DNA of 64,000 nt from Pirellulales bacterium. GTDB taxonomy: Bacteria; Planctomycetota; Planctomycetia; Pirellulales; JALHPA01. The stretch is taken from positions 124,001 through 188,000 of the forward strand of contig JANRLT010000065.1 in NCBI GenBank assembly GCA_033762255.1, read 5' to 3'. Below are positions 18,401-47,896 of the stretch, piece by piece. The notes under the pieces are model-generated. The model worked only from the letters and a program-made list of their open reading frames with translations. It was not told the DNA's origin and did no database searches. A program made the translations under genes and the position numbers. The stretch's first letter is position 1, and every line of letters begins with the position of its first letter.

Positions 18401-20389
18401 CTATTTGGGATTTGCCGCAGGGGTGTCAGGCGTGGCTGGCACAGGCTCGGAGGTGGCTGGCACAGATTCCGTAGTCGCAGGGGTGGAGTTGGCCGGTTGA
18501 TCAGCCGTTGGGGTGCTTTCGTCGGCACTCTTTTCAGCGGGTTGCTGGTCGGCAGGCAATGTATCTGTAGGTTGTGCGGGCGGGGAGACGCTGTCCGGGG
18601 TTGGGTCCGCGGATTGAGGGGCGGGGGTGGGACCCTCGGGAGGAGCTGATTCTGTGGCGGCTTTGGCGGGATTTGCTTTTTCCGGACTCGTCTGGTCGCT
18701 ACCGGCTGTGGCCGGGTCGGATTTTGCGGGAGCGTCGCCAGCGGGACTGGCGGGGTCAACGGCGGGAGCCGCAGTGGTTGGCTCTGGGGCGGGCTGGCCA
18801 TCGATGCAGTCCGGGGGGAACGGGACCGTGCCGCCATACAATCCCTTTTCCGCGATATCCACCACATCCTGCAACACAAAATTTTCGGGAAATTTTAATT
18901 GCGCGGTTTGCAGGCTTTTGCGGTAAAGCTGGATATCGTCGTTGATTTCCTCGGGGGTGATCGAATCATTCCGCAATAACGGAAAGCGGTTTAAGATACC
19001 GCGCCACAGACACCAGGCTTTTTCATATTCGGCCACGGATTCGTGGGGCTTGCCTGCCTTAAACAGTTGCTTGGCGTCATAAATATGTTGATGCGTGGCC
19101 CGCATGTCCGGCTCGTTCTCGACGATGACGCGGGTCTTCCAATAGTTGTAATTGAGCGGCCCGCGCATGCTATCGACTTCAAATTGCCGCTCTTCCTGGC
19201 GGATAATCTCGTTTGCCAGGTTTTTTGCTTGGGTGCGCACGGCGGGATCCACAGCCTGGTCGGCCAGTTCATGCCAGGTAACCTTGACCTCGTGTTCATG
19301 TTCGCCGGCCAATTGGTATTCCTCGACGGTGCGCTGCAATTTGGGCTTTAACAGGGCGGCGCGGGCCTGGGGATCCGAGACCGCCGCGATTTTTTCCGCG
19401 GTGAGCCGCTCGCGCTCTCCGGGGACCAGATTGTCCAACTGTTTGGACAACTCGGCGATTTTTTCGTCGATAGCCTCCAGCTCCCCCACGGTCGCGACCA
19501 CGCGGGTGTTTTCGATTTCGAACTTGCGATTGGAAAATTCATCCAAATCCTGTTTGGCTTGTTCCCAGGCGGGACGGCCTTTTTCTAATTGGCCTTCCTC
19601 CATCAGCGCCTCGGCATAGCTAATCTGCGACCAGGCGGTTTCCTTATAAAAGAGGTATGGCGTGGTGGTTTTGAGGGGAATCCCGCGATCAATCAGGGCG
19701 TCCGCCTGGTTGGTGGCTTCAATGAATTTATCCTTGGCCACCAGCCAATTGTCGCGTTTTTCCAGGGGGCGGTCGGGGTCGTCCTTGGCATGAAAGAGGT
19801 TCATCCAGTCTTGTTGAAACAACCGCCGATACAGGCGTTTTTCGTCGGCGCGGCCGATTTTGTGGCCGATGTACCAGGCCAGCTTGTGGGGCAGGCGGGC
19901 CTCCGTCTTATTCAGTAAAATGCCTTCCTTTAAAAAATTAAAGCCGACGGTCACTTGCTTGTACCGCGCGCGGTAATCGTCATATTCGACCGAGAGGTTG
20001 TAAGACAGATTATGCGCCTGAAAGTCCCAGACTTTCCAATAATTCGGCTGTAATTTGAGTATCTGCTCCAAGGTGGCGCGCAGGTTCTCCCAGTCTTCCT
20101 TTTTTTGATACTCGTGCGCCTGGCTGGAAAGCTGCGACACGGCCCAGCAGTTCATGCCAAACAACAGTTGCTGCATGGTGGCCCCGGCGGGATCGATCTC
20201 CCCCAGGTTGGCCGTGCTCAGGTTGTATTCATTGCGCAGTTGGGCCAGTTTGCCCGCGTAACCGCCGCCATTGCCGGCGGCGTCGCTAGCCTTGCCGGCG
20301 GGCTGGCCCAAATAAGCCAGGGGCAATAGCAATAGGATAATCCCGCCCAAATAAAGCAATTTACGTTGCCAGCCGCGATCAAAATTCAT
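18401..20389 (-). CDS. membrane-anchored TPR-like protein linked to ABC-2 exporter
   Basis: A 662-residue protein with one N-terminal membrane segment (residues about 11-27, LYLGGIILLLLPLAYLG) and a large helical body. Repeated tryptophan- and aromatic-rich helices (YQKKEDWENLRATLEQILKL, NYWKVWDFQAHNLSYNLSVE) recall TPR-like solenoids. Roughly the last 130 residues are a P/A/T/S/E-rich low-complexity tail (for example APEPTTAAPAVDPASPAGDA). The start codon overlaps the last 4 bp of the upstream permease gene, so the two are translationally coupled. It probably acts on the outer face of the cytoplasmic membrane with the exporter. No enzymatic motif was found. Confidence 0.8.
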   Translation of the reverse strand: MNFDRGWQRKLLYLGGIILLLLPLAYLGQPAGKASDAAGNGGGYAGKLAQLRNEYNLSTANLGEIDPAGATMQQLLFGMNCWAVSQLSSQAHEYQKKEDWENLRATLEQILKLQPNYWKVWDFQAHNLSYNLSVEYDDYRARYKQVTVGFNFLKEGILLNKTEARLPHKLAWYIGHKIGRADEKRLYRRLFQQDWMNLFHAKDDPDRPLEKRDNWLVAKDKFIEATNQADALIDRGIPLKTTTPYLFYKETAWSQISYAEALMEEGQLEKGRPAWEQAKQDLDEFSNRKFEIENTRVVATVGELEAIDEKIAELSKQLDNLVPGERERLTAEKIAAVSDPQARAALLKPKLQRTVEEYQLAGEHEHEVKVTWHELADQAVDPAVRTQAKNLANEIIRQEERQFEVDSMRGPLNYNYWKTRVIVENEPDMRATHQHIYDAKQLFKAGKPHESVAEYEKAWCLWRGILNRFPLLRNDSITPEEINDDIQLYRKSLQTAQLKFPENFVLQDVVDIAEKGLYGGTVPFPPDCIDGQPAPEPTTAAPAVDPASPAGDAPAKSDPATAGSDQTSPEKANPAKAATESAPPEGPTPAPQSADPTPDSVSPPAQPTDTLPADQQPAEKSADESTPTADQPANSTPATTESVPATSEPVPATPDTPAANPK

Positions 20390-22248
20390 GATGCCACCTC
20401 GCGCAGGCGCAGCAGGGCCACGCCAAGCAGAAACGCCGTAAAGGCAAAGAAAAACGCTTGAAAAGCCAATTGGGCCACCAGTTCGCCGGGGATATTAAAT
20501 CCCTGCTGCAATATTGATACGGTGTTGAACTGGTCAAAGTTGGGTATGAGCAGGCGGGTAAAATACATGGTCCACAAAATGGGGCGGTCGACGGACTTGA
20601 TGACGGCGCTTAAGGGGGTTTTCTCGAGGGGCATGATGACATTCATGCCGGTAAATATGCGATACGTGGCCTCCAGCGGACCGCCGCCATAATACTTTTT
20701 GAGCCGGGCCCCTTCTTCCATAAAGAGTTCGCTGGTGGTGATATCGTTGATGAACTGTAAATTCATCCCAAAAATTAAAAATCCAACCGTGCATAAGAGC
20801 GCGACCGGCGCGCTGACCACCGTGCTAAAGAACACGCCGCAACTGACGATGATGAGCATTTGCAGCCACATGCAAAACAGCGCCTTGACCAGATTCCACT
20901 CAAAGGGGATATCGGCCCCCTTGATGTACAAATCACGCTGCGCCATGCCAAAGTATTGTTGGGGGGCGGAACACTGCACGAGAATTTGCAGTTCATGGTC
21001 CGCGCTGACAAAGTCTTCAAATAAATTCCCCTGTCGCAAATTTCCCTCCTTGTCCTGGACCTCGACTAGCAGGGGAATCTCAAACGTGTCGATCTCGTTA
21101 TCCTTGCACAAAAATTCAATCGGACGGCTTTCCACCCGGGTTTGCGGATTGCGCAGCGTAATGGTCCCCGAGAGCGGCCGGTCAATCACCCCCTGCGACG
21201 TGCGAAACACACGAATCGTGCGCTCCAATCGCAACCCCCGCGGAAACCGTTCGGGCGTGATATCCTTAAATGTCCAAATCGCCGCCATCGGGCTGCTCCC
21301 CTCGATGAACGACCGGTACGACCATTCCTTGCCCACGCTGACGCCGCGGTCCTTGGTCTCGTCGTTGTATTCGTCGCGAATTTTTAGGGTCCCCAGTTGC
21401 TGGACCCGCGCCCGCAACAGTTCCTCCGGTTCGCGCAGCGTGTAACTGCCATCGGGATTTTTTATAATTTCATGCCGATGCCCAAACTGAAATTCCGTCC
21501 ACATTTCCTCCACTTTGGGGTCATGCCGCAAAAGGTGAAAATGATCCTGCGCAAGCGTCGTTTTGCCGTTGACCAGCCCCGCTTTTTGACTATTCAGGGC
21601 GGACACCGTTTCCGCGTCCAGGTCATGGGTGTGTTGCAGGCTTAAGACCAAGTAAAAGTAGCTAACGGTCCCCATCACCACCAGCAAAAACGTTCCCAGG
21701 GCCATAAACCCGCATATACGACCCAAAATCAACTCGGATGTGCGAACCGGCTTGGTGGCGACGGTAAAAATGGTTTTGTTTTTGAAGTCCTGGGGAATGC
21801 TAAACACACTGAGAATCAACAGCAAAAACAGCGCTAAGTAGCGCGTGGTAAAACCCAAGGAAAACGTAGTGTATAATTTGCCCGGATCATCGGAATTGGC
21901 GGTTAAGAACAAATTGGAAAAGATCAAAATCGCGGCAAAAATCACCAGCACAAACCAAACTCTCCGCCGCCACGCCTCCAGGATGACCAGCTTTGACAGG
22001 GCGTACACCCGCCGGGGAGAGATACCTATGATGTCAAAAAAAGTGCCCGTTAAGAGATTATAAGTCGCCTCCAGGCTGGCCGCGGGCCCCAACCTCACCA
22101 GCGCGACCAACGCCCCGATTACGGACAATCCCACCAAACCTAAAAACAGGGCAAAGAAGTACCACGTCGGACCTTTTCCCAACAGGATGTCGGTCAGCCA
22201 GTCGTAAAACGGCAGATATTCGTATTCGTAAACCATGCGTATCTTCAA
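20386..22248 (-). CDS. ABC-2 type transporter permease
   Basis: Membrane component of an ABC exporter. Hydrophobic segments lie near residues 30-55, 88-115, 130-150 and 165-200, then a soluble domain of roughly 240 residues (about 210-450) including GTITLRNPQTRVESRPIEFL, and a second membrane block from about 455 to the end. This split arrangement with a large extracytoplasmic insertion fits ABC-2/GldF-like permeases. 620 residues. The ATPase gene is 117 bp upstream on the same strand and the TPR-like gene overlaps its 3' end, so the three form an operon. Cargo unknown. Confidence 0.87.
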   Translation of the reverse strand: MKIRMVYEYEYLPFYDWLTDILLGKGPTWYFFALFLGLVGLSVIGALVALVRLGPAASLEATYNLLTGTFFDIIGISPRRVYALSKLVILEAWRRRVWFVLVIFAAILIFSNLFLTANSDDPGKLYTTFSLGFTTRYLALFLLLILSVFSIPQDFKNKTIFTVATKPVRTSELILGRICGFMALGTFLLVVMGTVSYFYLVLSLQHTHDLDAETVSALNSQKAGLVNGKTTLAQDHFHLLRHDPKVEEMWTEFQFGHRHEIIKNPDGSYTLREPEELLRARVQQLGTLKIRDEYNDETKDRGVSVGKEWSYRSFIEGSSPMAAIWTFKDITPERFPRGLRLERTIRVFRTSQGVIDRPLSGTITLRNPQTRVESRPIEFLCKDNEIDTFEIPLLVEVQDKEGNLRQGNLFEDFVSADHELQILVQCSAPQQYFGMAQRDLYIKGADIPFEWNLVKALFCMWLQMLIIVSCGVFFSTVVSAPVALLCTVGFLIFGMNLQFINDITTSELFMEEGARLKKYYGGGPLEATYRIFTGMNVIMPLEKTPLSAVIKSVDRPILWTMYFTRLLIPNFDQFNTVSILQQGFNIPGELVAQLAFQAFFFAFTAFLLGVALLRLREVAS

Positions 22249-22364
22249 AAAATTGAGCTAGCTATTCGCAACATCAGCCCGCTGGCGTTTGGCCTATTAC
22301 TGGAAAAAATCCTACACACCGCCAGTCCGGTAATAATCCCCCCGGCAGGCGCGAGAATGCGTGA

Positions 22365-23324
22365 TCAACCCTCATCAATCGAGCGGCGGCCGGGTCGGGC
22401 CTCGCTATCGCGCACAATGGCCAAAAAAAGCTCTTCCAGGGTCGTAGTTGGATGATCTAGCCGTTCGACCCGGACGTCATGCCTGGCTAGAACCTGCCGG
22501 ATTTCCGCTTCGCAGGCGGCGGACATGGAAGAGGTGCGCAGCTCGGTCTGGTCGCGCACCTTTAATAGCGAATCCACCCGCCCCAGTTCTTTCAATTCTC
22601 CCTGGTGCAGTATCGCGATTCGGTCGCATACGTCCTGGACATCGGCCAACAAATGGCTGCTCATGAGCACGGTTTTTCCGCGGGCTTTGAGCTTGAGGAT
22701 CAGATCCTTCATCCACCGCGTCCCCAACGGATCCAGCCCGCTGGTAGGTTCGTCCAAGACGATAAGTTCGGGGTCGTTAATCAGCGCCTGCGCTAAGCCA
22801 ATCCGCCGGGTCATCCCCTTGGAATATTCCCGCAGCGGCCGCCGGCGGTCGCGGGCCAGGCCGACTTCTTCGATTAACTGATTGATCCGCTCCCGCCGCA
22901 CATCCGCCGGAATGTTAAACAAGCGCCCGTAAAAATCCAGCGTCTCATCCGCGTTCAAAAATTTGTATAAATACGATTCCTCGGGCAAGTACCCCAAACG
23001 CTCGTTTTTTTCCACGTCGGTCGCCTCGCGGTCAAAGACGAGCGCCTTGCCCGAAGTGGGAAATAACAGCCCCAACAGCAGTTTAATAGTGGTGGTTTTT
23101 CCCGAACCATTTGGCCCCAAGAGACCAAACACCTCCCCCCGCAAGATATTGAGATCCAGCGCTTTTAACGCCCAGACTTTTTGCCTTCCCCAAAAATCGC
23201 GATAGATTTTACTCAGATTGCGGGCCTCGGCGACAATTTCCCGTTTGGGGGGCTGCCCTGGCGAAATAGGTAGGGAAGAGCCGTTTGGGTCGGCAAGCTC
23301 GGCGGTGGCAATAGGACTAGCCAT
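22365..23324 (-). CDS. ABC transporter ATP-binding protein
   Basis: ATPase of the ABC-2 exporter. Walker A is GPNGSGKT (residues 70-77), the Q-loop is in [11 protein letters not shown], the signature is the ABC-2 variant [15 protein letters not shown], Walker B is [12 protein letters not shown] and the switch histidine is in [12 protein letters not shown]. Start placed at the ATG at 23322-23324 (MASPIAT), 319 residues; a TTG eight codons upstream is weaker. The C-terminal 80 residues form the usual extension of drug/Nod-type exporters ([13 protein letters not shown]). First gene of the three-gene operon. Confidence 0.93.
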
Positions 23325-23539
23325 GTTGATTCCGGTAAAAAACGTCAAAACCTAGCAAAACTGCGCCACAGACGCGCGCGGAGGAGGAGTTTATGCCAAA
23401 AATTGCCAAGCTACCCGTAGTTACGCCTCAAATTGCGGGCTAGTTCAGGCGGAGCAGCCGCCCCGGCACTTCGCCCTTCGCTGGCCCCTCCACCCCAGCC
23501 GGCGCACTCCCTGGGCAATCGGCAAAATCTTATCATAAA

Positions 23540-25273: not shown

Positions 25274-28200
25274 TTACTCCTTGCTGTCCTTTGGCGGAGT
25301 TGGCTGCTCTGCTTGCGCTGGATCAGCCGGCGGCAATGGGGGGAGTTCTTTAGGAGCATCGGCCGCGGGATCAGCCGGCGGCAATGGGGGGAGTTGTTTG
25401 GGAGGATCAGCCGCAGGATCGGCCGCGGGAGGGACCTCGGGGGGGGGATCGTCCAGGCCGGGCAGACCGGTATCTATCAAAATGTAACCCGCCCACCAAA
25501 AGGGGTGGCTAGCGATGAGTTCCTCAGCCTTGGGCGGGGTTTTTAAGCGCGGCTCCAGCGTGGGTTCGATGGGCCAGGACTTGATGAGTTCCACGCTCCG
25601 TTGCCAGGCCTGTGGAGCGCTCATCTGGGGGAGTTCCGCGACAAAATTGCGAATGAGTTCATACGCCACCCCGCCGCCGGTCCGCCAACGTGAAATCAGG
25701 ACCGTTCTGGCTCCATGCGACATCATGCCGCACGCGGTCAAAAACATGTCCTGGCCATTCCCTAGTTTGGTATTGCGCACGGCGTCCTCGGCAACGGTGT
25801 GAAAGCCGGGCAAAATCACAATATCGATCCGTTTCCAGGGAAGGATCAGCCAATTGGCGACCGCCCCGATACCCACGCCCTTGTCTAAATTTAAAGGAGC
25901 CCAGTCCCAGGCCCCTTTGCCCATGACCGCCAAATCATCCAAGACAATCAATTGTTCGATAAATCCGCCAAATAGCGGGGAGGGGACATTTAGCCCCGCT
26001 TTCAGTGGTTGGCTCTTGGGGAGTTTGTCGGCCAGTTTGGCCTGCGCGTCAAGGGTGTGGCTCGCCTCGCCGCGGGGATGAAATTTTCCCGCCACGATTC
26101 CTGTTTCTAACTGGGCCGGGCGGGGAGTAGTCCGCCCCAGCGCCAGCCCCATGGTCGGCGCGTAGCGAATGCGCGTTTTAGATAAGAAAGAAACGGGGGC
26201 CTGGGGATCTCCCACCTGGACCGCTTCCCAGGGGAGATACCACAGCAGTCCGTCGGGAATAATGACAAGCTCGGCAAAGGAGTGGCCAAAATTTACCTTT
26301 GAGCCGGCCAAAAACGTGTCAATGCATTCCTTGCCCGCCAGCTTCCAGGCATCCTCTTTCAATTGCGCCACACCCAGGTCCCGATTGGGGTCGATATTTC
26401 CCAGGGACCGCAAAAACGCCACGGTCTTTTTCTCTAGCAGCGCCGGATCGGCCACCCGCCACTGGGCGTATTTGTTTTTAGAAATTAGCATGGCATAAAT
26501 GTGCCGCGATGTGGCATACGTCAATAGCGCGACCTGGCCCTGGGGGAGCCGTTGCTGCAAATCGTTAAACGCGATCTTGGGGGGAAAAACCAAATTGGTC
26601 GCTTCCCGCCGTAGCGTCATCTGGCGAATGAGCAACTCTTGCGCGTTGCAAACTTGCAGCCATTCGTTCATCAGATCGGCCTGCTTGCGGGCATCTTCGG
26701 GCTTGGTGGTGGCCAGAGGAAGCTGGGCGATGGCGGCTTTCAGCTTGGCGGATTGCTGGGCCAGCTCGGCATATTGGGGGTATTTAACCACCAAATCCTG
26801 GCGTTGCAGTTGGGCCGTTTGATCGAGCGACTCGGCGGGGCCTTCGAGGATCCAACGAATCGACAAAGCCCGCCCGCCAAACGGAAGCGAATTGAACAGT
26901 CGGTGCCGCTTGGCCAGATCGGCAATTTCAAACGCCCGCTCCGGGGACTTGGGCAAGGTTAATTCAAACCACTGTTCGAATAACGGTTGATGCGAATTGG
27001 AAAGCGTTAACAACGAATCCAGCGGGCGTTTGGCCCAATCGGCGGAAGAGGGATCGCCGGCCAATTGCTCAAAAATGAGCAGCGCATTCCGTTCGCTGAG
27101 ATTGTTATTTGCCAAACGGGCCGCGGTCACCAGCAAGTGGTACAGCCATTTGCTATGGTTTTTGCCTAGCTCCTGGCATTTCATCCAGGCGGCGTCGCCG
27201 GTCGCTAGTTTGCCCGCCTGATATTCGGTGAGCGCGGTGATGTAATTCAACCGGACCCCCACCTCGCCAATCAACAACTGGCTGCGGCCAATCTTGGCTC
27301 GGGCGTCGGTCAGCAGCGCGCTGGCTAATTTTGTTTGATCATTGAGCGCGGCACTTTCCGCGGCCAGGATGGTAAGCGACGCCCAGAGTTCCTTGTAGCC
27401 CCCTTTTTTTGCCCAGGCGGAGGCGGGTTCTAGCTCTTTAAAGACCCCTTTTTGATTGCGGAGGGTGTGGACCAGGTAGCTATAGCGAAAGGCTTCTTCC
27501 AGAATGGTTAAATCGCCAAACTCGGCGGCGGCGCAGGTCGCCTGCGCAAAGAGGACGTTCGCTTCGTCAAATTTATTATCCTCGAGATAGATATGCCCCA
27601 AGCCGACCAAGGCGTAGCAGGTCAGGGGGTGGTCCAGTTCGCCATTAAGGGCGATTCCGCGTTTAAGAAACGCGATGGCCTGCCCCTTGTCCCCCGTGGC
27701 GGCAAGCGCGGTGCCCACCTGCACATCGTGCCAGGCCTGCGACCAGCTATTGGGGGGGCCGGGATTTTTTTGCAGGCTATCCAGCATTTGTGTGAGCAAC
27801 GTGTCATGCTTGGCCACGGGGCCTAACAACTCCGCCCGCCGCTTGATCGCCAGGATCGTGCAGCGCACGATTTCCTGAACCGGGACCGAGACTTGCTTCG
27901 GCGGATTGATCACGCCCCCTTTTTGCAGGGTCGCCTCGGTCACGGGCGCTCCCTGGGACATGAGGATCGTCGCGGGAAACTTTCCCATTTTGGTCTCGGG
28001 CGAGCGGGTCCCCCACGGAAACACCACATGATTTTGCGAGTTGATCTGCCCGGGAAAATTGATCGACTGCAACCAGTTGGCATACTGCATGGATAGCGCC
28101 AGGGCCGCGCCGTAATTTTCCACCGCCCGTTCAAAGTTTCCCAGCCGATAATAGCTCTCGCCGATCATCGTGTAATAACAAATCGCGTCTATCCAGCGAT

Positions 28201-28504
28201 TGGTGCCAAACTTGATGCTGCCGCGCAGTTCGTCATTAAACGCATTCAACGCGGCCTGATAGCTCCCCTCGTGCAAGCCCGCCACCGCGCTATAGTACGT
28301 TGGACTCAGGACGGTCCCCATTTGGGCGTGACAATCCCGCGCGGGCCACACTAGCCCCAAAGCCAGACAGATCCAAGGGACGATCGCCAGCCAGCCGCGG
28401 CGTTGATGAAGCGGGTGGTTTGTTTGCCATGCGGCAGTCCGGGTCGCCAGGAAAAAAGAGTCGGCAAGCGCGCCGTGAGCAACCAGCCCTGGTGATGGTT
28501 TCAT
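25274..28504 (-). CDS. exported TPR-CHAT domain protein
   Basis: CHAT is a caspase-like peptidase fold usually following TPR repeats. Residues about 42-60 (IVPWICLALGLVWPARDCHAQ) look like a signal peptide or membrane anchor. TPR-like helices cover about 70-560 (for example YSAVAGLHEGSYQAALNAF, CYYTMIGESYYRLGNFERAV). The C-terminal CHAT region shows VILPGFHTVAED with the candidate catalytic H902 and MFLTACGMMSHGARTVLISRW with the candidate C925, then the expected GGGVAYELIRNF. ELVIIPDGLLWYLPWEAV marks the start of the fold. The tail has proline-rich repeats of 16 residues. 1076 residues; start at the ATG at 28504. Substrate and function are unknown, and no gasdermin-like partner is adjacent. 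Confidence 0.85.
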   Translation of the reverse strand: MKPSPGLVAHGALADSFFLATRTAAWQTNHPLHQRRGWLAIVPWICLALGLVWPARDCHAQMGTVLSPTYYSAVAGLHEGSYQAALNAFNDELRGSIKFGTNRWIDAICYYTMIGESYYRLGNFERAVENYGAALALSMQYANWLQSINFPGQINSQNHVVFPWGTRSPETKMGKFPATILMSQGAPVTEATLQKGGVINPPKQVSVPVQEIVRCTILAIKRRAELLGPVAKHDTLLTQMLDSLQKNPGPPNSWSQAWHDVQVGTALAATGDKGQAIAFLKRGIALNGELDHPLTCYALVGLGHIYLEDNKFDEANVLFAQATCAAAEFGDLTILEEAFRYSYLVHTLRNQKGVFKELEPASAWAKKGGYKELWASLTILAAESAALNDQTKLASALLTDARAKIGRSQLLIGEVGVRLNYITALTEYQAGKLATGDAAWMKCQELGKNHSKWLYHLLVTAARLANNNLSERNALLIFEQLAGDPSSADWAKRPLDSLLTLSNSHQPLFEQWFELTLPKSPERAFEIADLAKRHRLFNSLPFGGRALSIRWILEGPAESLDQTAQLQRQDLVVKYPQYAELAQQSAKLKAAIAQLPLATTKPEDARKQADLMNEWLQVCNAQELLIRQMTLRREATNLVFPPKIAFNDLQQRLPQGQVALLTYATSRHIYAMLISKNKYAQWRVADPALLEKKTVAFLRSLGNIDPNRDLGVAQLKEDAWKLAGKECIDTFLAGSKVNFGHSFAELVIIPDGLLWYLPWEAVQVGDPQAPVSFLSKTRIRYAPTMGLALGRTTPRPAQLETGIVAGKFHPRGEASHTLDAQAKLADKLPKSQPLKAGLNVPSPLFGGFIEQLIVLDDLAVMGKGAWDWAPLNLDKGVGIGAVANWLILPWKRIDIVILPGFHTVAEDAVRNTKLGNGQDMFLTACGMMSHGARTVLISRWRTGGGVAYELIRNFVAELPQMSAPQAWQRSVELIKSWPIEPTLEPRLKTPPKAEELIASHPFWWAGYILIDTGLPGLDDPPPEVPPAADPAADPPKQLPPLPPADPAADAPKELPPLPPADPAQAEQPTPPKDSKE
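25320..25440. repeat. 48-bp tandem repeat in the 3' end of the CHAT gene
   Basis: A near-identical segment beginning ggatcagccggcggcaatg starts at 25320 and again at 25368, a period of 48 bp (16 codons), with a partial third copy from about 25403. It encodes the proline-rich tail units of the form DPAADxPKxLPPLPPA. Such repeats change copy number easily. Confidence 0.85.
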
Positions 28505-28846
28505 GATTTGCCTCGGACAGGCGGGGAAAACTGACGGGAAAATATCATCCCGTCAAATGTTGGGTAACAAAGGGAAAACCGCGGACCGCGCGTGCTAGCG
28601 GTACTTAACGTTTCATTTTATCCGGTTTGGCCGGGGAATGCGAAATAACAGCGATCAGAAAATCCAGCGGCTGCCGCCCCCTGGGGTATACAGCCGCTAG
28701 CAAGTTAACGGATATTCGCTGGCATTTTGTCAAAAATGTTAAATTTTGCCGACTATGCCGACGATAACTTTTGTGCCGACTTTTCCATGCGGAAAAAGCG
28801 GTCATTATGTCTCGGGTTCGTGGCTTTTGATCGGAGAATTCCATTT
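28505..28846. other. divergent intergenic region, CHAT gene / lipoprotein gene
   Basis: 342 bp without a recognised gene. A perfect 7-bp hairpin GACGGGA (28533-28539) / TCCCGTC (28548-28554) lies in the CHAT gene leader, and cagcggctg...cagccgctag forms a dyad near 28659-28700. An open frame running into the lipoprotein from 28727 has no family support. Confidence 0.45.
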
Positions 28847-29095
28847 ATGCCGGCCCACTCTCGTCAGGTTTGGCTCTCGCGCACCATTGGATGCACCCTC
28901 ATGTGTGGTACGCTGGCGGCATTTACCGGTTGCCAGGTGGACGTGGGGGGGCAAACCCTTCCCAGCGGCTACTACCTGAAGGACGACATTCAATATTTCC
29001 CCACCGGCCCGAAATTTAAGCTTGCCCAAGAAGCCGCCGCGATGAAGGCCTACAACGAACAACAGGCTCTGCAAACGCAGCCGTCGGTTCAATAA
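28847..29095 (+). CDS. small planctomycete lipoprotein
   Basis: An 82-residue protein with a signal peptide and probable lipobox (residues 16-29, CTLMCGTLAAFTGC; modified cysteine C29). The short mature part reads QVDVGGQTLPSGYYLKDDIQ then YFPTGPKFKLAQEAAAMKAY. This SGYYL-DD-QYFP-GP-F-L-EAAA pattern recurs in planctomycete lipoproteins, to my recollection, without known function. Start set at the ATG at 28847 with GGAG about 11 bases upstream; upstream in-frame starts precede no sensible signal sequence. Confidence 0.75.
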   Translation: MPAHSRQVWLSRTIGCTLMCGTLAAFTGCQVDVGGQTLPSGYYLKDDIQYFPTGPKFKLAQEAAAMKAYNEQQALQTQPSVQ

Positions 29096-43548: not shown

Positions 43549-46323
43549 ATGAATGCCCCCGCTAAATTCACTGGACATCAACGCCGGTTGGTCACCAGCC
43601 CCTGGGTCAAGTGGTCCGACAGTCTAGCGCGGACTTTGATCACGGTGGGGGGCATTGGCACGATCATCGTGGTTTTGCTCATTTGCGTGTTTTTGGTCGT
43701 GGTGGTGCTACCGCTGGGAAGTTCCCCGCGATTGACCACGGGTGCAGAGCTTTCGGCCTTACCAGCGCAGGGTGCCCCATTGCTGGCGATCCGCTTGTCG
43801 GCCAATGGCAAGCTCGCCTGGCAAATCGATCAATCCGGCGCTTGGAGCGTGTGGGAGACCACGCGGGGACGCACACTGTCCACGCTCTCATCCGATCAAA
43901 CGGGGCTTTCCGGGATCACTCTGCTTAGCGTGCTGCCCGATGGTCGACTACTGGCAGCCAACGCCAGCGGGGAATTTCACTATGGGCGAGTAGCCAACGT
44001 AACCACGTTCCACAATCAGCCCCCCAAAATACCTGCCAATAACGCCGAAGAAGGCCAAGCTTCCTCAAGCACGACTACCGCTGTTCCCATAGCCGGAGCC
44101 GACCCATCCCCGCCAGCGGGGAACGAACCCCTCATTCTGGGAGAAAAGCTGTGGTCCCAACTCCCCTCCGGCAAGTGGCGGGCGGATACGCTGGAACTGG
44201 TCTGGGAAAGGTATTTTCCCTGGCAATTAAGTGGCCCCCCCCGCGCGTTGGCTCTGGCCAACAATAACCCCACCGCGTTGGTTGCGGCGGCACTTCGCGA
44301 CGATGGCGCCTGCCAAGTCATGCGCATGCCGCTAGTGGGGGGGGCGTTGCAGCCTACCCAGGGAAAATTGATCGCGGATTTCCCTGTATTAAATGAGCAA
44401 GGTCAGGCTCCCCGGTTTATCGGTCTGTCGGGGCTAGGTGATTTATTGTATTGCCTGTGGGAAGATGGGACGCTGGAGTGGTATCGGCTGGGGACGGAAG
44501 TGGCCCAACCCGGAAAGCGGCCGCTGGCCTACACCCCGGTGAAGGTGCTTTCAAACCTCTCTTCCACATTGCCTAGCGGCACAAAAGTAACCACCCTGGA
44601 AATGCTGCTCGGTGGAACAACCCTTTTAATAGGCGATAGCGCTGGGTTGGTGCAGGCGTGGTTTCCGGTGAACCCTTCTCCGGGAATGACGCCCAACGAA
44701 CCTTCGTTGGTTCGTGCCCACCAGTTTCTCGGCCAGGGGGGGCCTATCCGCCAACTGATCGCCACCGAACGCAACCGTACTGTTATTTCGCTGGCTGAAT
44801 CAGGCTCACTCCGCTTATTGTATATCACCCTGGACCGAATTCTGGCGGAGATCCCCGCCGCCAAAGAGGGGCGGAAATCGCCTATCACCCACGCCGCGCT
44901 CAATGCCGAACAGACGCGGTTGGTGACGCTTTCCCAGGTAACGGAAGCCGCGACATCCGCCCCCACGGGGAGGATTGCTACCCGCGCGGCGCAGGCGTGG
45001 GACTACGAGGCACTGCATCCCGATATTACCCTGGCTGGCATCTTTTTGCCTGTCTGGTACGAAGGATCACGCCAGCCCGTCTTTCAGTGGCAAACCTCTG
45101 GCAGCGAAAGCGCGGAGTTGCGGTTTAGCCTGATCCCGCTGATTTTTGGCACGCTGAAGGCCACGTTTTATAGTTTGCTGTTTGGAGCTCCCCTCGCTTT
45201 TTTAGCGGCTATTTTTACCAGCGAATTTTTGCATCCTTCCACCAAGGCCCGCGTCAAGCCCCTGATCGAGATGATGGCCAGCCTGCCTAGCGTCGTCCTG
45301 GGCTATTTTGCGGGAATGCTCTTTGCCCCATTTTTGGAACATCACTTGGGACAGGTCTTTGCAGCGCTGGGACTGGTACCCCTGGGCTTGATTTTAGCGG
45401 CGTATTTGTGGGAACTCCTCCCCCAGCGGATCACCCTGCAGGCTGGCTCCTGGCGGTTGGTTGTAATCGCGCTCGCGATTATTCCCGGAGTACTCTTGGG
45501 CGTGTGGTCGGGACAGACGTTGGAACAGTGGATCTTCGGCAAATCTATCATGGATTGGCTTAACGAGTCCCCGACCAACCCGCTGGGGAGATCCTCTCCG
45601 TGGGGGGGCTGGTTTTTATTGCTGTTGCCCTTGGTGGGAATTTTTATCTCCATCAGCGGGGGCCGATGGGGGGATGTCTGGCTGCGGAGAAAGTCCCAAG
45701 GCTGGTCCCGCCCCCGCGCGGCGCTTTTAAATATTGTCAGGTTTTTTGCCCTGATTGCCGCCACCGTGCTGGTGACCGCCCTCATGGCGGCGCTCTTAAC
45801 ACAAGTCGGGCTGATGCTGGGGTTTGACATTCGGGGAGGGGCGGACTCGGTGGGCTTTGAGCGACGGAACGCCCTGGTTGTGGGCATTACCATGGGCTTT
45901 GCCATTATTCCCCTGATCTACACCATTGCCGATGACGCGCTTTCCACCGTGCCTAATCATCTACGGTCGGCCTCACTGGGGGCCGGGGCGACTCCCTGGC
46001 AAACGGCGGTGCGGATCGTGATACCGATGGCCATGAGCGGCCTGTTTTCGGCGTTGATGATTGGCCTGGGACGCGCCGTGGGTGAGACGATGATTGTGCT
46101 CATGGCGGCGGGCAACACGCCGATAATGGAATTCAGCATATTTAACGGGTTTAAGACGCTTTCGGCGGGGATTGCGTCGGAGATGTCCGAAACGCCCGCC
46201 GGCAGTACGCATTACCGGGTGTTGTTTTTGGCCGCGTTGGTGCTGTTTATGATGACCTTTGTGATAAACACCCTTGCGGAGGTCGTGCGGCAGCGATTCC
46301 GCCGGAGGGCGTATGAGCTCTGA
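43549..46323 (+). CDS. pstC: phosphate transporter permease PstC with large inserted domain
   Basis: Membrane channel subunit. The 924 residues are nearly three times E. coli PstC (319). A first membrane segment (about 28-56) is followed by an insertion to about residue 520 with beta-propeller-like repeats (LLAIRLSANGKLAWQIDQSG, LSVLPDGRLLAANASGEFHY, LLYCLWEDGTLEWYRLG). The permease core follows: LIFGTLKATFYSLLFGAPLA, the EAA-type loop LRSASLGAGATPWQTAVRIV, and GLGRAVGETMIVLMAAGN. A long PstC form exists in proteobacteria, but this one is larger. It overlaps pstA by 11 bp. By topology the insertion probably lies outside the cytoplasm. Confidence 0.9.
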   Translation: MNAPAKFTGHQRRLVTSPWVKWSDSLARTLITVGGIGTIIVVLLICVFLVVVVLPLGSSPRLTTGAELSALPAQGAPLLAIRLSANGKLAWQIDQSGAWSVWETTRGRTLSTLSSDQTGLSGITLLSVLPDGRLLAANASGEFHYGRVANVTTFHNQPPKIPANNAEEGQASSSTTTAVPIAGADPSPPAGNEPLILGEKLWSQLPSGKWRADTLELVWERYFPWQLSGPPRALALANNNPTALVAAALRDDGACQVMRMPLVGGALQPTQGKLIADFPVLNEQGQAPRFIGLSGLGDLLYCLWEDGTLEWYRLGTEVAQPGKRPLAYTPVKVLSNLSSTLPSGTKVTTLEMLLGGTTLLIGDSAGLVQAWFPVNPSPGMTPNEPSLVRAHQFLGQGGPIRQLIATERNRTVISLAESGSLRLLYITLDRILAEIPAAKEGRKSPITHAALNAEQTRLVTLSQVTEAATSAPTGRIATRAAQAWDYEALHPDITLAGIFLPVWYEGSRQPVFQWQTSGSESAELRFSLIPLIFGTLKATFYSLLFGAPLAFLAAIFTSEFLHPSTKARVKPLIEMMASLPSVVLGYFAGMLFAPFLEHHLGQVFAALGLVPLGLILAAYLWELLPQRITLQAGSWRLVVIALAIIPGVLLGVWSGQTLEQWIFGKSIMDWLNESPTNPLGRSSPWGGWFLLLLPLVGIFISISGGRWGDVWLRRKSQGWSRPRAALLNIVRFFALIAATVLVTALMAALLTQVGLMLGFDIRGGADSVGFERRNALVVGITMGFAIIPLIYTIADDALSTVPNHLRSASLGAGATPWQTAVRIVIPMAMSGLFSALMIGLGRAVGETMIVLMAAGNTPIMEFSIFNGFKTLSAGIASEMSETPAGSTHYRVLFLAALVLFMMTFVINTLAEVVRQRFRRRAYEL

Positions 46324-47896
46324 CGAATCCCCCTCCAGCGCGGCTGTCGCGGATACTCCGCGCCGTCGGCGGGGCTATCGCCGCCAGCCATCCAACTACT
46401 TTTTATTAAAAGCGCAGGGCGAGCCCCTGATCTGGCTGACCGGGGGGGCATTATTTATCGCGCTGGCGATGATTTTTGGCCTGATCGGCTACATAGTCAT
46501 TCAGGGGGGGAGCACGTTTTGGCCCGCCCCGATCCAAGCGCTCAAGCTAGCGGCGGGAGGGGTGTTTGTCGGGGAACTGCAAGCCACCGACACCTCTGAC
46601 GCCGCAGCCACCCGCTGGCGTTTCCAGGGGAGCAATCAACTGAATGGCGGCCGCATGGACAAATGGGTGCGGGGGAATGATCTCTTATCCGCCGAGGCAC
46701 TCTCTCCCGCGGCGCTGGCGGCCTTTCCCCCCGCGGTGCGGGAGCCTTTTCCCCGCGATGCCGTGGTGGTGGAACGATTGAGCGATGGCAAATTGATCGG
46801 CATCTTGGCCGCGTTTGTCCCAGCGGAGGGACCTTCTATCACGGATCCAGCCCTGGCCCTGGCGGAATTTGAAAAATGGCATCGCGAATCGCAACAACAG
46901 CAGGCTTCTCGGTTAAAACAAAAACAGGACGAGGAAGAGAATGCGGCCATCCTGGTGCGGGTCTTTAGCCGTACGAACGAGGGGGTCGAAATCCGCGTCC
47001 CTTTGCCAGAAATTGTCCGCCTGGTCACGCCCAATCAACTGGGCTGGTTCGGCAAGCTGGGCGTGTACGCCAGTCGCTGGTGGGAATTTGTAAGCTCTTC
47101 CCCGCGCGAGGCCAATCTGGCTGGGGGGGTGTTTCCCTGTATTTGGGGAACGGTGGCCATGACACTCTTTATGTCGATCCTGGTGACGCCCTTTGGCGTG
47201 CTGGCCGCGCTCTATTTGCGGGAATACGCCCAACCGGGATTAATCGTCAGCATGATCCGCATCGCCATTAATAATCTGGCGGGCGTTCCCAGCATTGTCT
47301 TTGGGGCGTTTGGGCTGTTTTTCTTTTGCACATGGCTGGGGGGCGGGATCGACCGGTTATTTTATCCTGCGGCCGTGGCCGAGGGTCAGGCCGTCTTTGG
47401 CAAGGGGGGTCTGCTGTGGGCGTCGCTGACCATGTCGTTATTGACCTTGCCGGTGGTGATTGTCGCAACCGAAGAAGCGCTGGCCGCGGTGCCGAACTCC
47501 ATGCGCGAGGGATCTTACGCCTGCGGCGCCAGCAAGTGGCAGACGATCCGCCGCATTGTGCTGCCCCGCGCGTTGCCGGGGATCATGACCGGGTTGATCT
47601 TGGCCATGGCCCGCGGCGCGGGAGAAGTCGCCCCGCTGATGCTGGTGGGGGTGGTCAAGCAGGCCCCGGACCTGCCATTAGACTGGAATTTTCCGTTTTT
47701 GCATTTAGAACGAAGTTTCATGCATCTGTCGTATCACGTGTTTAACGTGGGATTCCTTAGCCCAAATAGCGCCGCCGCCATGCCCCTGGTCATGACCTCC
47801 ACGTTGCTTCTGATTGCCATCATCACCATACTAAATGTTACCGCCATTTGGCTGCGAAATTACCTGCGGCGCAAATATCAGTCCAGCCAGTTTTAA
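46313..47896 (+). CDS. pstA: phosphate transporter permease PstA, long form
   Basis: Partner channel subunit to PstC. Start at the ATG at 46313, overlapping the end of pstC, with GGAGG six bases upstream; 527 residues. TM1 is about 38-66 (LTGGALFIALAMIFGLIGYI). About 200 residues of insertion follow, with a charged helix (EKWHRESQQQQASRLKQKQD). The permease core begins at about FPCIWGTVAMTLFMSILVTP and includes the loop SMREGSYACGASKWQTIRRI and ARGAGEVAPLMLVGV. E. coli PstA has 296 residues. The matching enlargement of both permeases suggests the inserts contact each other or the lipoprotein. Confidence 0.92.
   Translation: MSSDESPSSAAVADTPRRRRGYRRQPSNYFLLKAQGEPLIWLTGGALFIALAMIFGLIGYIVIQGGSTFWPAPIQALKLAAGGVFVGELQATDTSDAAATRWRFQGSNQLNGGRMDKWVRGNDLLSAEALSPAALAAFPPAVREPFPRDAVVVERLSDGKLIGILAAFVPAEGPSITDPALALAEFEKWHRESQQQQASRLKQKQDEEENAAILVRVFSRTNEGVEIRVPLPEIVRLVTPNQLGWFGKLGVYASRWWEFVSSSPREANLAGGVFPCIWGTVAMTLFMSILVTPFGVLAALYLREYAQPGLIVSMIRIAINNLAGVPSIVFGAFGLFFFCTWLGGGIDRLFYPAAVAEGQAVFGKGGLLWASLTMSLLTLPVVIVATEEALAAVPNSMREGSYACGASKWQTIRRIVLPRALPGIMTGLILAMARGAGEVAPLMLVGVVKQAPDLPLDWNFPFLHLERSFMHLSYHVFNVGFLSPNSAAAMPLVMTSTLLLIAIITILNVTAIWLRNYLRRKYQSSQF

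Follow-up and report, generated by a model that had tools for sequence, protein, structure and literature searches.

We describe a gene on the reverse strand, at positions 25274–28504 of a 64,000-nucleotide stretch of DNA from a Pirellulales bacterium (contig JANRLT010000065.1, positions 124,001 to 188,000; the whole stretch is called the window below). The gene is a single intact open reading frame (ORF) for a protein of 1076 amino acids, with a GAGG stretch ending six bases 5' of its ATG, and the protein combines a predicted export signal, a superhelix of tetratricopeptide repeats (TPRs) and a CHAT-type protease fold. The analysis points to an exported pseudoprotease that probably serves as an envelope scaffold or adaptor of the order Pirellulales, perhaps in partnership with a small lipoprotein encoded by the neighboring, divergent gene. 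The initial annotation of this DNA had proposed an exported CHAT peptidase; the homology to the CHAT fold holds, whereas the assignment as a peptidase is not supported, because the catalytic positions are occupied by other residues across the family. The features discussed are the following, with positions in the window.

25274–28504, reverse strand: TPR and CHAT-fold protein, 1076 amino acids (ORF; PF12770 and TPR family matches)
28325–28504, reverse strand: signal peptide, residues 1–60, predicted cut CHA/Q (hydrophobic segment 37–55; family-wide rule)
26585–28315, reverse strand: helical TPR-type superhelix, residues ~64–640 (AlphaFold2 model, Pfam TPR matches)
26135–26584, reverse strand: CHAT1-like first half of the protease-like region, approximate limits 641–790 (model strands 657–684 and 745–781; hhalign from residue 666)
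25460–26122, reverse strand: CHAT2-like caspase fold without catalytic residues, residues ~795–1015 (hhalign, model, column counts, PDB matches)
25934–25936, reverse strand: codon of D857, the canonical position of the HG-motif His (column counts)
25802–25804, reverse strand: codon of F901, the canonical position of the catalytic Cys (column counts)
25799–25801, reverse strand: codon of H902, the His proposed earlier, not invariant (column counts)
25730–25732, reverse strand: codon of C925, the Cys proposed earlier, not invariant and within helix 918–929 (column counts, model)
25277–25459, reverse strand: proline-rich, low-confidence tail, residues ~1016–1076 (low terminal pLDDT; 35% P)
28505–28846, no strand: intergenic region of 342 bases common to both divergent genes (gene positions)
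28847–29095, forward strand: small lipoprotein, 82 amino acids, lipobox FTG/C, conserved GGQTLPS..YYL.DD.QYF..GP.FKL..EAAA (adjacency in 43 of the 55 genomes with both genes; consensus)

Fold and active-site columns

The protein matches TPR families and the CHAT family PF12770 (36.3 bits against a cut-off of 24, in two stretches), the best CHAT stretch pairing residues 926–1010 with profile positions 217–287. Its relatives likewise mostly match PF12770 at the two ends of the profile only. When the family is compared with canonical CHAT proteins by hhalign, the probability is 98.6 and the E value 6e-16, over columns 670–1015, which together with the PF12770 match places it in the CHAT superfamily by homology. 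A search of PDB sequences with the family profile returned TPR designs and other TPR proteins; no CHAT entry was found among them.

The AlphaFold2 model, calculated from the window protein and 77 homologues, has a predicted local distance difference test (pLDDT) score of 87 and a predicted template modeling score (pTM) of 0.86, and consists of a TPR superhelix followed by a separase/Csx29-like domain. Foldseek ranks entries for the TPR-CHAT of Craspase and for separases highest, and ciliary central-pair proteins are interspersed with them. With VIA-align, TPR-CHAT (7y84_C) gives Z 25.8, although the global superposition is loose (root-mean-square deviation, rmsd, 15.9 over 519), while the separases 5mz6_1 and 5fc2_B give Z 23.2 (rmsd 3.9 over 393) and Z 21.9 (rmsd 3.5 over 308), and the DdvA structure 8rw5 Z 16.0 (rmsd 16.0 over 482). 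We attach most weight to the separase alignments, because their rmsd over the protease half is low, while TPR-rich models reach middling Z values easily. The model and the PDB matches to TPR-CHAT and separase thus assign a caspase/separase-type fold to the part that follows the TPRs. The division of this part into CHAT1-like and CHAT2-like halves is our own, made after the description of Csx29 in PMC10028731.

The predicted fold locates the positions at which the catalytic residues should lie. Strand 851–855 (QLIVL), which the His of the canonical HG motif should follow, leads into D856–D857, and among the 119 members counted (the window included; early-ending or late-starting fragments and same-locus duplicates were removed beforehand) column 857 is D in 84, E in 28 and His in none. 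In the model, strand 895–898 (IVIL) is followed by P899-G900-F901-H902, where canonical members have a strand and then S-A-C-E; column 901 is F in 85 members, Y in 17, M in 5, L in 4 and Cys in a single one. The canonical CHATs of the same order, by comparison, keep both the HG His and the Cys at 30 of 30 loci in a profile check. The profile was built from 18 of these loci chosen by their His/Cys motif, the other 12 being independent of that choice, and the 30 are the loci retrieved, at 164–250 bits, hence a subset of strong matches. The family accordingly lacks the Cys and His of an active CHAT peptidase at the expected places.

The loss extends to the periphery of the family. In 24 genomes, mostly with weaker-scoring members, the region is readable in 23, and inspection by eye shows neither a Cys at 901 nor an HG-motif His in any of these; most of them do not retain D857 either. 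A recent or local inactivation was rejected on these grounds, the site being gone in the 119 members and in the readable outlying ones. Taken with the model, the column counts make a strong case that the CHAT catalytic site is dead across the family. As judged from its sequences, the family belongs to the CHAT superfamily but lacks the feature by which CHAT peptidases are defined.

The initial annotation had instead put forward H902 and C925 as a catalytic dyad at close spacing. Both residues are indeed present, 23 residues apart, and they occur together in 65 of the 119 members. Their proximity is not a valid objection, and we have dropped it as an argument, since H2003 and C2029 of human separase are only 26 residues apart (PMC9729208, which also gives 42 for H585 and C627 of TPR-CHAT). 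However, neither residue is invariant: column 902 is H in 89 members, R in 20 and Q in 5, and column 925 is C in 83, T in 15 and M in 11. In the model, H902 adjoins the lost Cys position F901, and C925 lies within helix 918–929, ahead of strand 934–938, which reverses the order expected in a caspase fold, where the strand should precede the Cys. With this conservation, the helical location of C925 and the canonical controls, in which His and Cys stand where D857 and F901 stand here, the dyad is rejected, and an exported cysteine peptidase using it appears highly improbable.

Other residues of the same domain are under strong constraint. W940 and G944 are kept in all 119 members and R939 in 115, while E984, P1001 and W1004 are invariant in the family alignments of 45 and 78 sequences. 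Alignment A1 contains 44 of the 48 listed homologues; alignment A3 has 77 members, drawn from the best 80 of 135 relatives, of which 78 are full-length and one near-duplicate was left out. The RWxxGG motif is retained in 23 of the 23 readable outlying members, and canonical CHATs carry SLW..D where the family has SRWxxGG. The W of SRW and the P-FW motif have canonical counterparts. None is seen for R939, G944 and the EPR motif, which may mark a new binding site.

This constraint could also be taken to mean that the domain has been repurposed as an enzyme or ligand-binding domain, with a new, non-proteolytic CHAT2 site built from SRWxxGG, EPR and HPFFW. The near-invariance of these residues and their difference from SLW..D speak for such a site. 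On the other hand, the W of SLW and a PxYWA motif are common to canonical CHATs and may be structural, and R941 varies in the outlying members, for which EPR was not counted. We consider this possibility unlikely, and favor a pseudoprotease in which the TPR superhelix and the remodeled CHAT groove, with its conserved RWxxGG, would bind a peptide or a protein as ligand and leave it uncleaved.

Export signal and distribution of the family

A hydrophobic segment at residues 37–55 is followed by ARDCHA/Q at 55–61, located as the initial annotation described. A home-made rule, which requires a hydrophobic 12-mer and then a small-x-small motif in the reading frame ahead of the conserved part (start codons left free), finds a signal-peptide-like N-terminus in 115 of 115 testable homologues, as against 160 of 1180 random internal windows; the remaining 4 of the 119 members have no testable N-terminus. 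The residue after the predicted cut is Q in 88 of the 115. By this rule the protein has a Sec signal peptide with an A-x-A-type cut. The strongest hydrophobic 19-mer further along, at 844 (mean Kyte–Doolittle hydropathy 1.41), is weaker than the first and overlaps a core strand. As far as sequence features go, export of the family across the cytoplasmic membrane is well supported, in line with the earlier suggestion that the protein acts outside that membrane. The proline-rich tail was also correctly noted: the last 65 residues are 35% P, and at least 15% P is found in 65 of 91 family tails of at least 20 residues, so that it is a loose family property.

The family is nearly universal in the order. 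By protein search, 56 of 57 genomes (the window's own included) have a homologue, and a profile search finds the family in 283 of 297 order genomes that are at least 90% complete, covering 120 of 123 genera. Most homologues are 30–43% identical to the window's protein. Within the best 80 of 135 relatives, most records that are named carry planctomycete names such as Pirellulales or Planctomycetaceae, and Lacipirellula limnantheis and Adhaeretor mobilis are among the species represented; one record (L107) is titled Candidatus Nealsonbacteria, which we take for a mislabeled bin, and another (L139) is titled only "bacterium". A scan of the window's own genome at the DNA level gives this gene as the only PF12770 match found (21.1 bits, below the cut-off), and with one CHAT match and one family match a single copy was found in this genome.

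Outside the order the family fades. In a sample of 294 genomes of the phylum, long matches occur in G240 and in all 5 sampled genomes of the order; that of G052, one of these 5, is diverged and split in two. Another 58 genomes have only partial, weaker matches, the best at 62 bits, two of them in another lineage of the class. The full-length relative in G240, which lies outside the order on a 6.3 kb contig (G240:C61, locus L236), was treated as probable contamination (contamination 6), although this is not proved. That contig carries the CHAT-family and lipoprotein genes divergently, and its genome is filed outside the class.

Two further kinds of unusual member were seen. The locus L035 of G052, at ~25% identity, and the relatives in family f16, a large family of the order, are strongly diverged, and in G052 the lipoprotein gene is on another contig. 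At G006:C1:1494385–1497296 and G356:C14:562670–565571 the CHAT-family gene is matched in two pieces that lie in different frames or open frames, which may reflect either a sequencing error that shifted the frame or decay of the gene.

That the gene is young or was moved horizontally is unlikely in view of the 283 of 297 order genomes and the homologue in 56 of 57. A role as a defense gene was also rejected: the TPR-CHAT protein has no match in PADLOC and none in PHROGs, and the gene is near-universal and usually single-copy.

The divergent lipoprotein gene and the opposing evidence

Conservation of the gene neighborhood, which the initial annotation had suggested as a check, centers on one gene. 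When ORFs of at least 90 amino acids were clustered over 83 wide loci (the window included), a single neighbor was kept in place, a small ORF on the opposite strand, in 48 of the 83. A sensitive search finds this gene in 87 of 122 nonredundant loci (the window excluded), on the opposite strand in 86 of them and, at L113, on the same strand and 3.7 kb off; the other 35 loci gave none, in several cases because too little sequence lies upstream. Of the 57 genomes, again including the window's own, 55 have the gene, and it is adjacent and divergent to the CHAT gene in 43 of the 55 genomes with both, all 43 adjacent cases being divergent. The earlier statement that there is no adjacent toxin substrate is right in that no toxin is recognized next door, but it overlooked this conserved gene at 28847–29095.

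The product has a signal peptide with a lipobox, mostly TGCQ, and an invariant Cys, and is assigned as a lipoprotein on that basis. Its consensus continues with GGQTLPSPYYLxDDVQYF.PGPEFKL..EAAA. GCQ is invariant in the 52 sequences of alignment A4, which took in 51 of the 54 listed lipoproteins, while GCM or GCA replaces it in a small number of the 87. Pfam, PHROGs and NCBIfam gave no match for it. The model (pTM 0.29) shows a signal helix and a second helix besides an extended stretch and is of little informative value, and the short conserved segment is probably unfolded. At L052 (11883–12185 and 12004–12456, forward strand) a second, diverged lipoprotein copy, 44% identical to the window's, lies directly behind the first; the genome concerned, G033, has two CHAT-family genes.

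Several observations weigh against an exported pseudoprotease working together with this lipoprotein. As regards the dead site, a Cys occurs somewhere in 893–912 in 8 of the 119 members and a His somewhere in 848–866 in 14, none at the expected places, and one member, L176, has both. The equivalence of the Cys-loop columns is based on model strands and motif resemblance; hhalign sets the gap four residues later, so that A905 faces the Cys (this column is A in 97 members and still Cys in only 1 of 119), and hmmalign to the canonical CHAT hidden Markov model leaves gaps at the active-site region. As regards the distribution, 14 of the 297 order genomes gave no family match. Eight of these are in genus g281, which also has gene-bearing members, and non-matches can be assembly gaps. 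As regards the partnership, the two genes lie on different contigs in 12 of the 55 genomes, a few of which may be assembly breaks; all 16 genomes sampled from another lineage of the class (16 of 16) have the lipoprotein, with no CHAT-family gene near it at those 16 loci; and it is kept in 6 of 6 genomes tested among the 14 of the order without the CHAT gene.

The six CHAT-less genomes that keep the lipoprotein are G412, G431, G483, G520, G404 and G447. Four of them are in g281, which suggests gene loss there. The presence of the lipoprotein without the CHAT gene suggests that it is independent of the CHAT protein; it is probably also the older of the two, in which case the CHAT protein may have joined a lipoprotein that already existed.

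The pairing could then reflect inherited gene order only, the two products being functionally unrelated, and we regard this as quite possible, at somewhat less than an even chance. It would agree with the occurrence of the lipoprotein apart from the CHAT gene and with the behavior of another neighbor, a GlsB-like membrane protein, which also stays in place in 23 of the 92 loci whose sequence reaches 1.5 kb or more upstream. However, the lipoprotein is adjacent in 68 of these 92, about three times as often, and an acetyltransferase-like protein in 10; with at least 4 kb upstream the numbers are 60, 20 and 12 of 76 loci for the lipoprotein, the GlsB-like and the acetyltransferase-like protein, the latter two being named from the look of their sequences and not by search. 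The adjacency with the lipoprotein moreover persists among CHAT proteins that are mostly only 30–43% identical to the window's. We therefore retain the lipoprotein as the best candidate partner or membrane tether of the pseudoprotease in genomes where both are present, although this part of the proposal is weaker than the binding role of the groove.

Elsewhere in the window, an ABC ATPase, an ABC-2-like permease (weak match) and a 662-amino-acid protein that is hydrophobic near its N-terminus and has a long tail rich in Pro and Ala stand in a row at 18401–23348 (reverse strand); the row is on the strand of the CHAT gene, but folC intervenes on the other strand. At 43549–47896 (forward strand) are adjacent proteins of 924 and 540 amino acids, each with a C-terminal BPD_transp_1 permease domain.

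Known CHAT systems and the possible envelope role

Csx29, the TPR-CHAT protein of the type III-E CRISPR effector Craspase, resembles the protein in having TPRs followed by a two-part CHAT region, and it is the solved structure with the highest Z. It differs in that it keeps its catalytic residues (H615/C658, or H585/C627) and is CRISPR-linked (PMC10028731, PMC9729208), while here both residues are replaced and an export signal is present. In Csx29 a pseudo-caspase half, CHAT1, sits beside the active half (PMC10028731); by analogy, both CHAT halves would be inactive in the present family. No Csx30 and no type III-E CRISPR effector were seen among the scanned window proteins, the remaining genes not having been scanned.

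The separases of C. elegans (5mz6) and Chaetomium (5fc2) share the fold of the protease domain but have an active His-Cys dyad, are eukaryotic and act on cohesin. The canonical CHATs of the order have a homologous domain and give a strong match in 30 of the same 57 genomes; apart from keeping the HG His and the Cys, they differ in that none was found in the window's own genome. For protease folds without proteolysis there are reported precedents in MamO and in protease-dead separase; MamO has a serine-protease fold and is cited here as an analogy.

DdvA of Myxococcus (8rot, 8rw5) is named in the PDB as a transmembrane anti-sigma factor, and a CHAT domain lies close to its C-terminal end. The premise of the initial annotation that characterized CHAT peptidases act in the cytosol is therefore doubtful (the side of the membrane that this domain faces is presumed), and there is at least this precedent for a CHAT protein associated with a membrane. 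It could be proposed that the present family is likewise a sensor for membrane signaling, in which the lipoprotein, or some other membrane protein, would act as relay. The fold match to 8rw5 points in this direction, as does the finding that Csx29 also acts on a sigma-factor inhibitor (PMC10028731). The DdvA alignment is loose, however, and ranks below those of Csx29 and separase; the signal peptide is followed by TPR helices, with neither an N-terminal anti-sigma domain nor a transmembrane anchor, and no other strong hydrophobic segment exists. DdvA also retains ATHG and AACE motifs and is the anti-sigma factor of DdvS (PMC4374960). Finally, no sigma or anti-sigma gene was recognized among the 28 neighbor clusters listed, which were not annotated by search. 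The probability of a DdvA-like sensor appears low, a little below that of a repurposed CHAT2 site.

The envelope scaffold or adaptor remains the reading that we prefer. In the sequence of events that we propose, the signal peptide would export the protein, in which the TPR superhelix is joined to a separase/Csx29-like CHAT region with a lost His-Cys site, and the ligand held in the groove would be left intact. A more specific version is that this pseudo-separase is the receptor of an envelope complex, its dead groove capturing the segment GGQTLPSPYYLxDDVQYFPPGPEFKL of the older lipoprotein in a planctomycete-specific arrangement that organizes the envelope or senses its state; we hold this version to be rather unlikely, if somewhat less so than the repurposed site. 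No paper on this family was found in the searches made of the open-access PMC literature, which does not show its absence from print.

CHAT proteins are mostly discussed as defense or cell-death proteases. The retention of this gene in 283 of the 297 order genomes is hard to explain by phage defense and would point to a housekeeping role in the envelope. The organization of the envelope is unusual in the planctomycete group, and the CHAT gene and the lipoprotein gene provide two definable genes for studies of function in this order.

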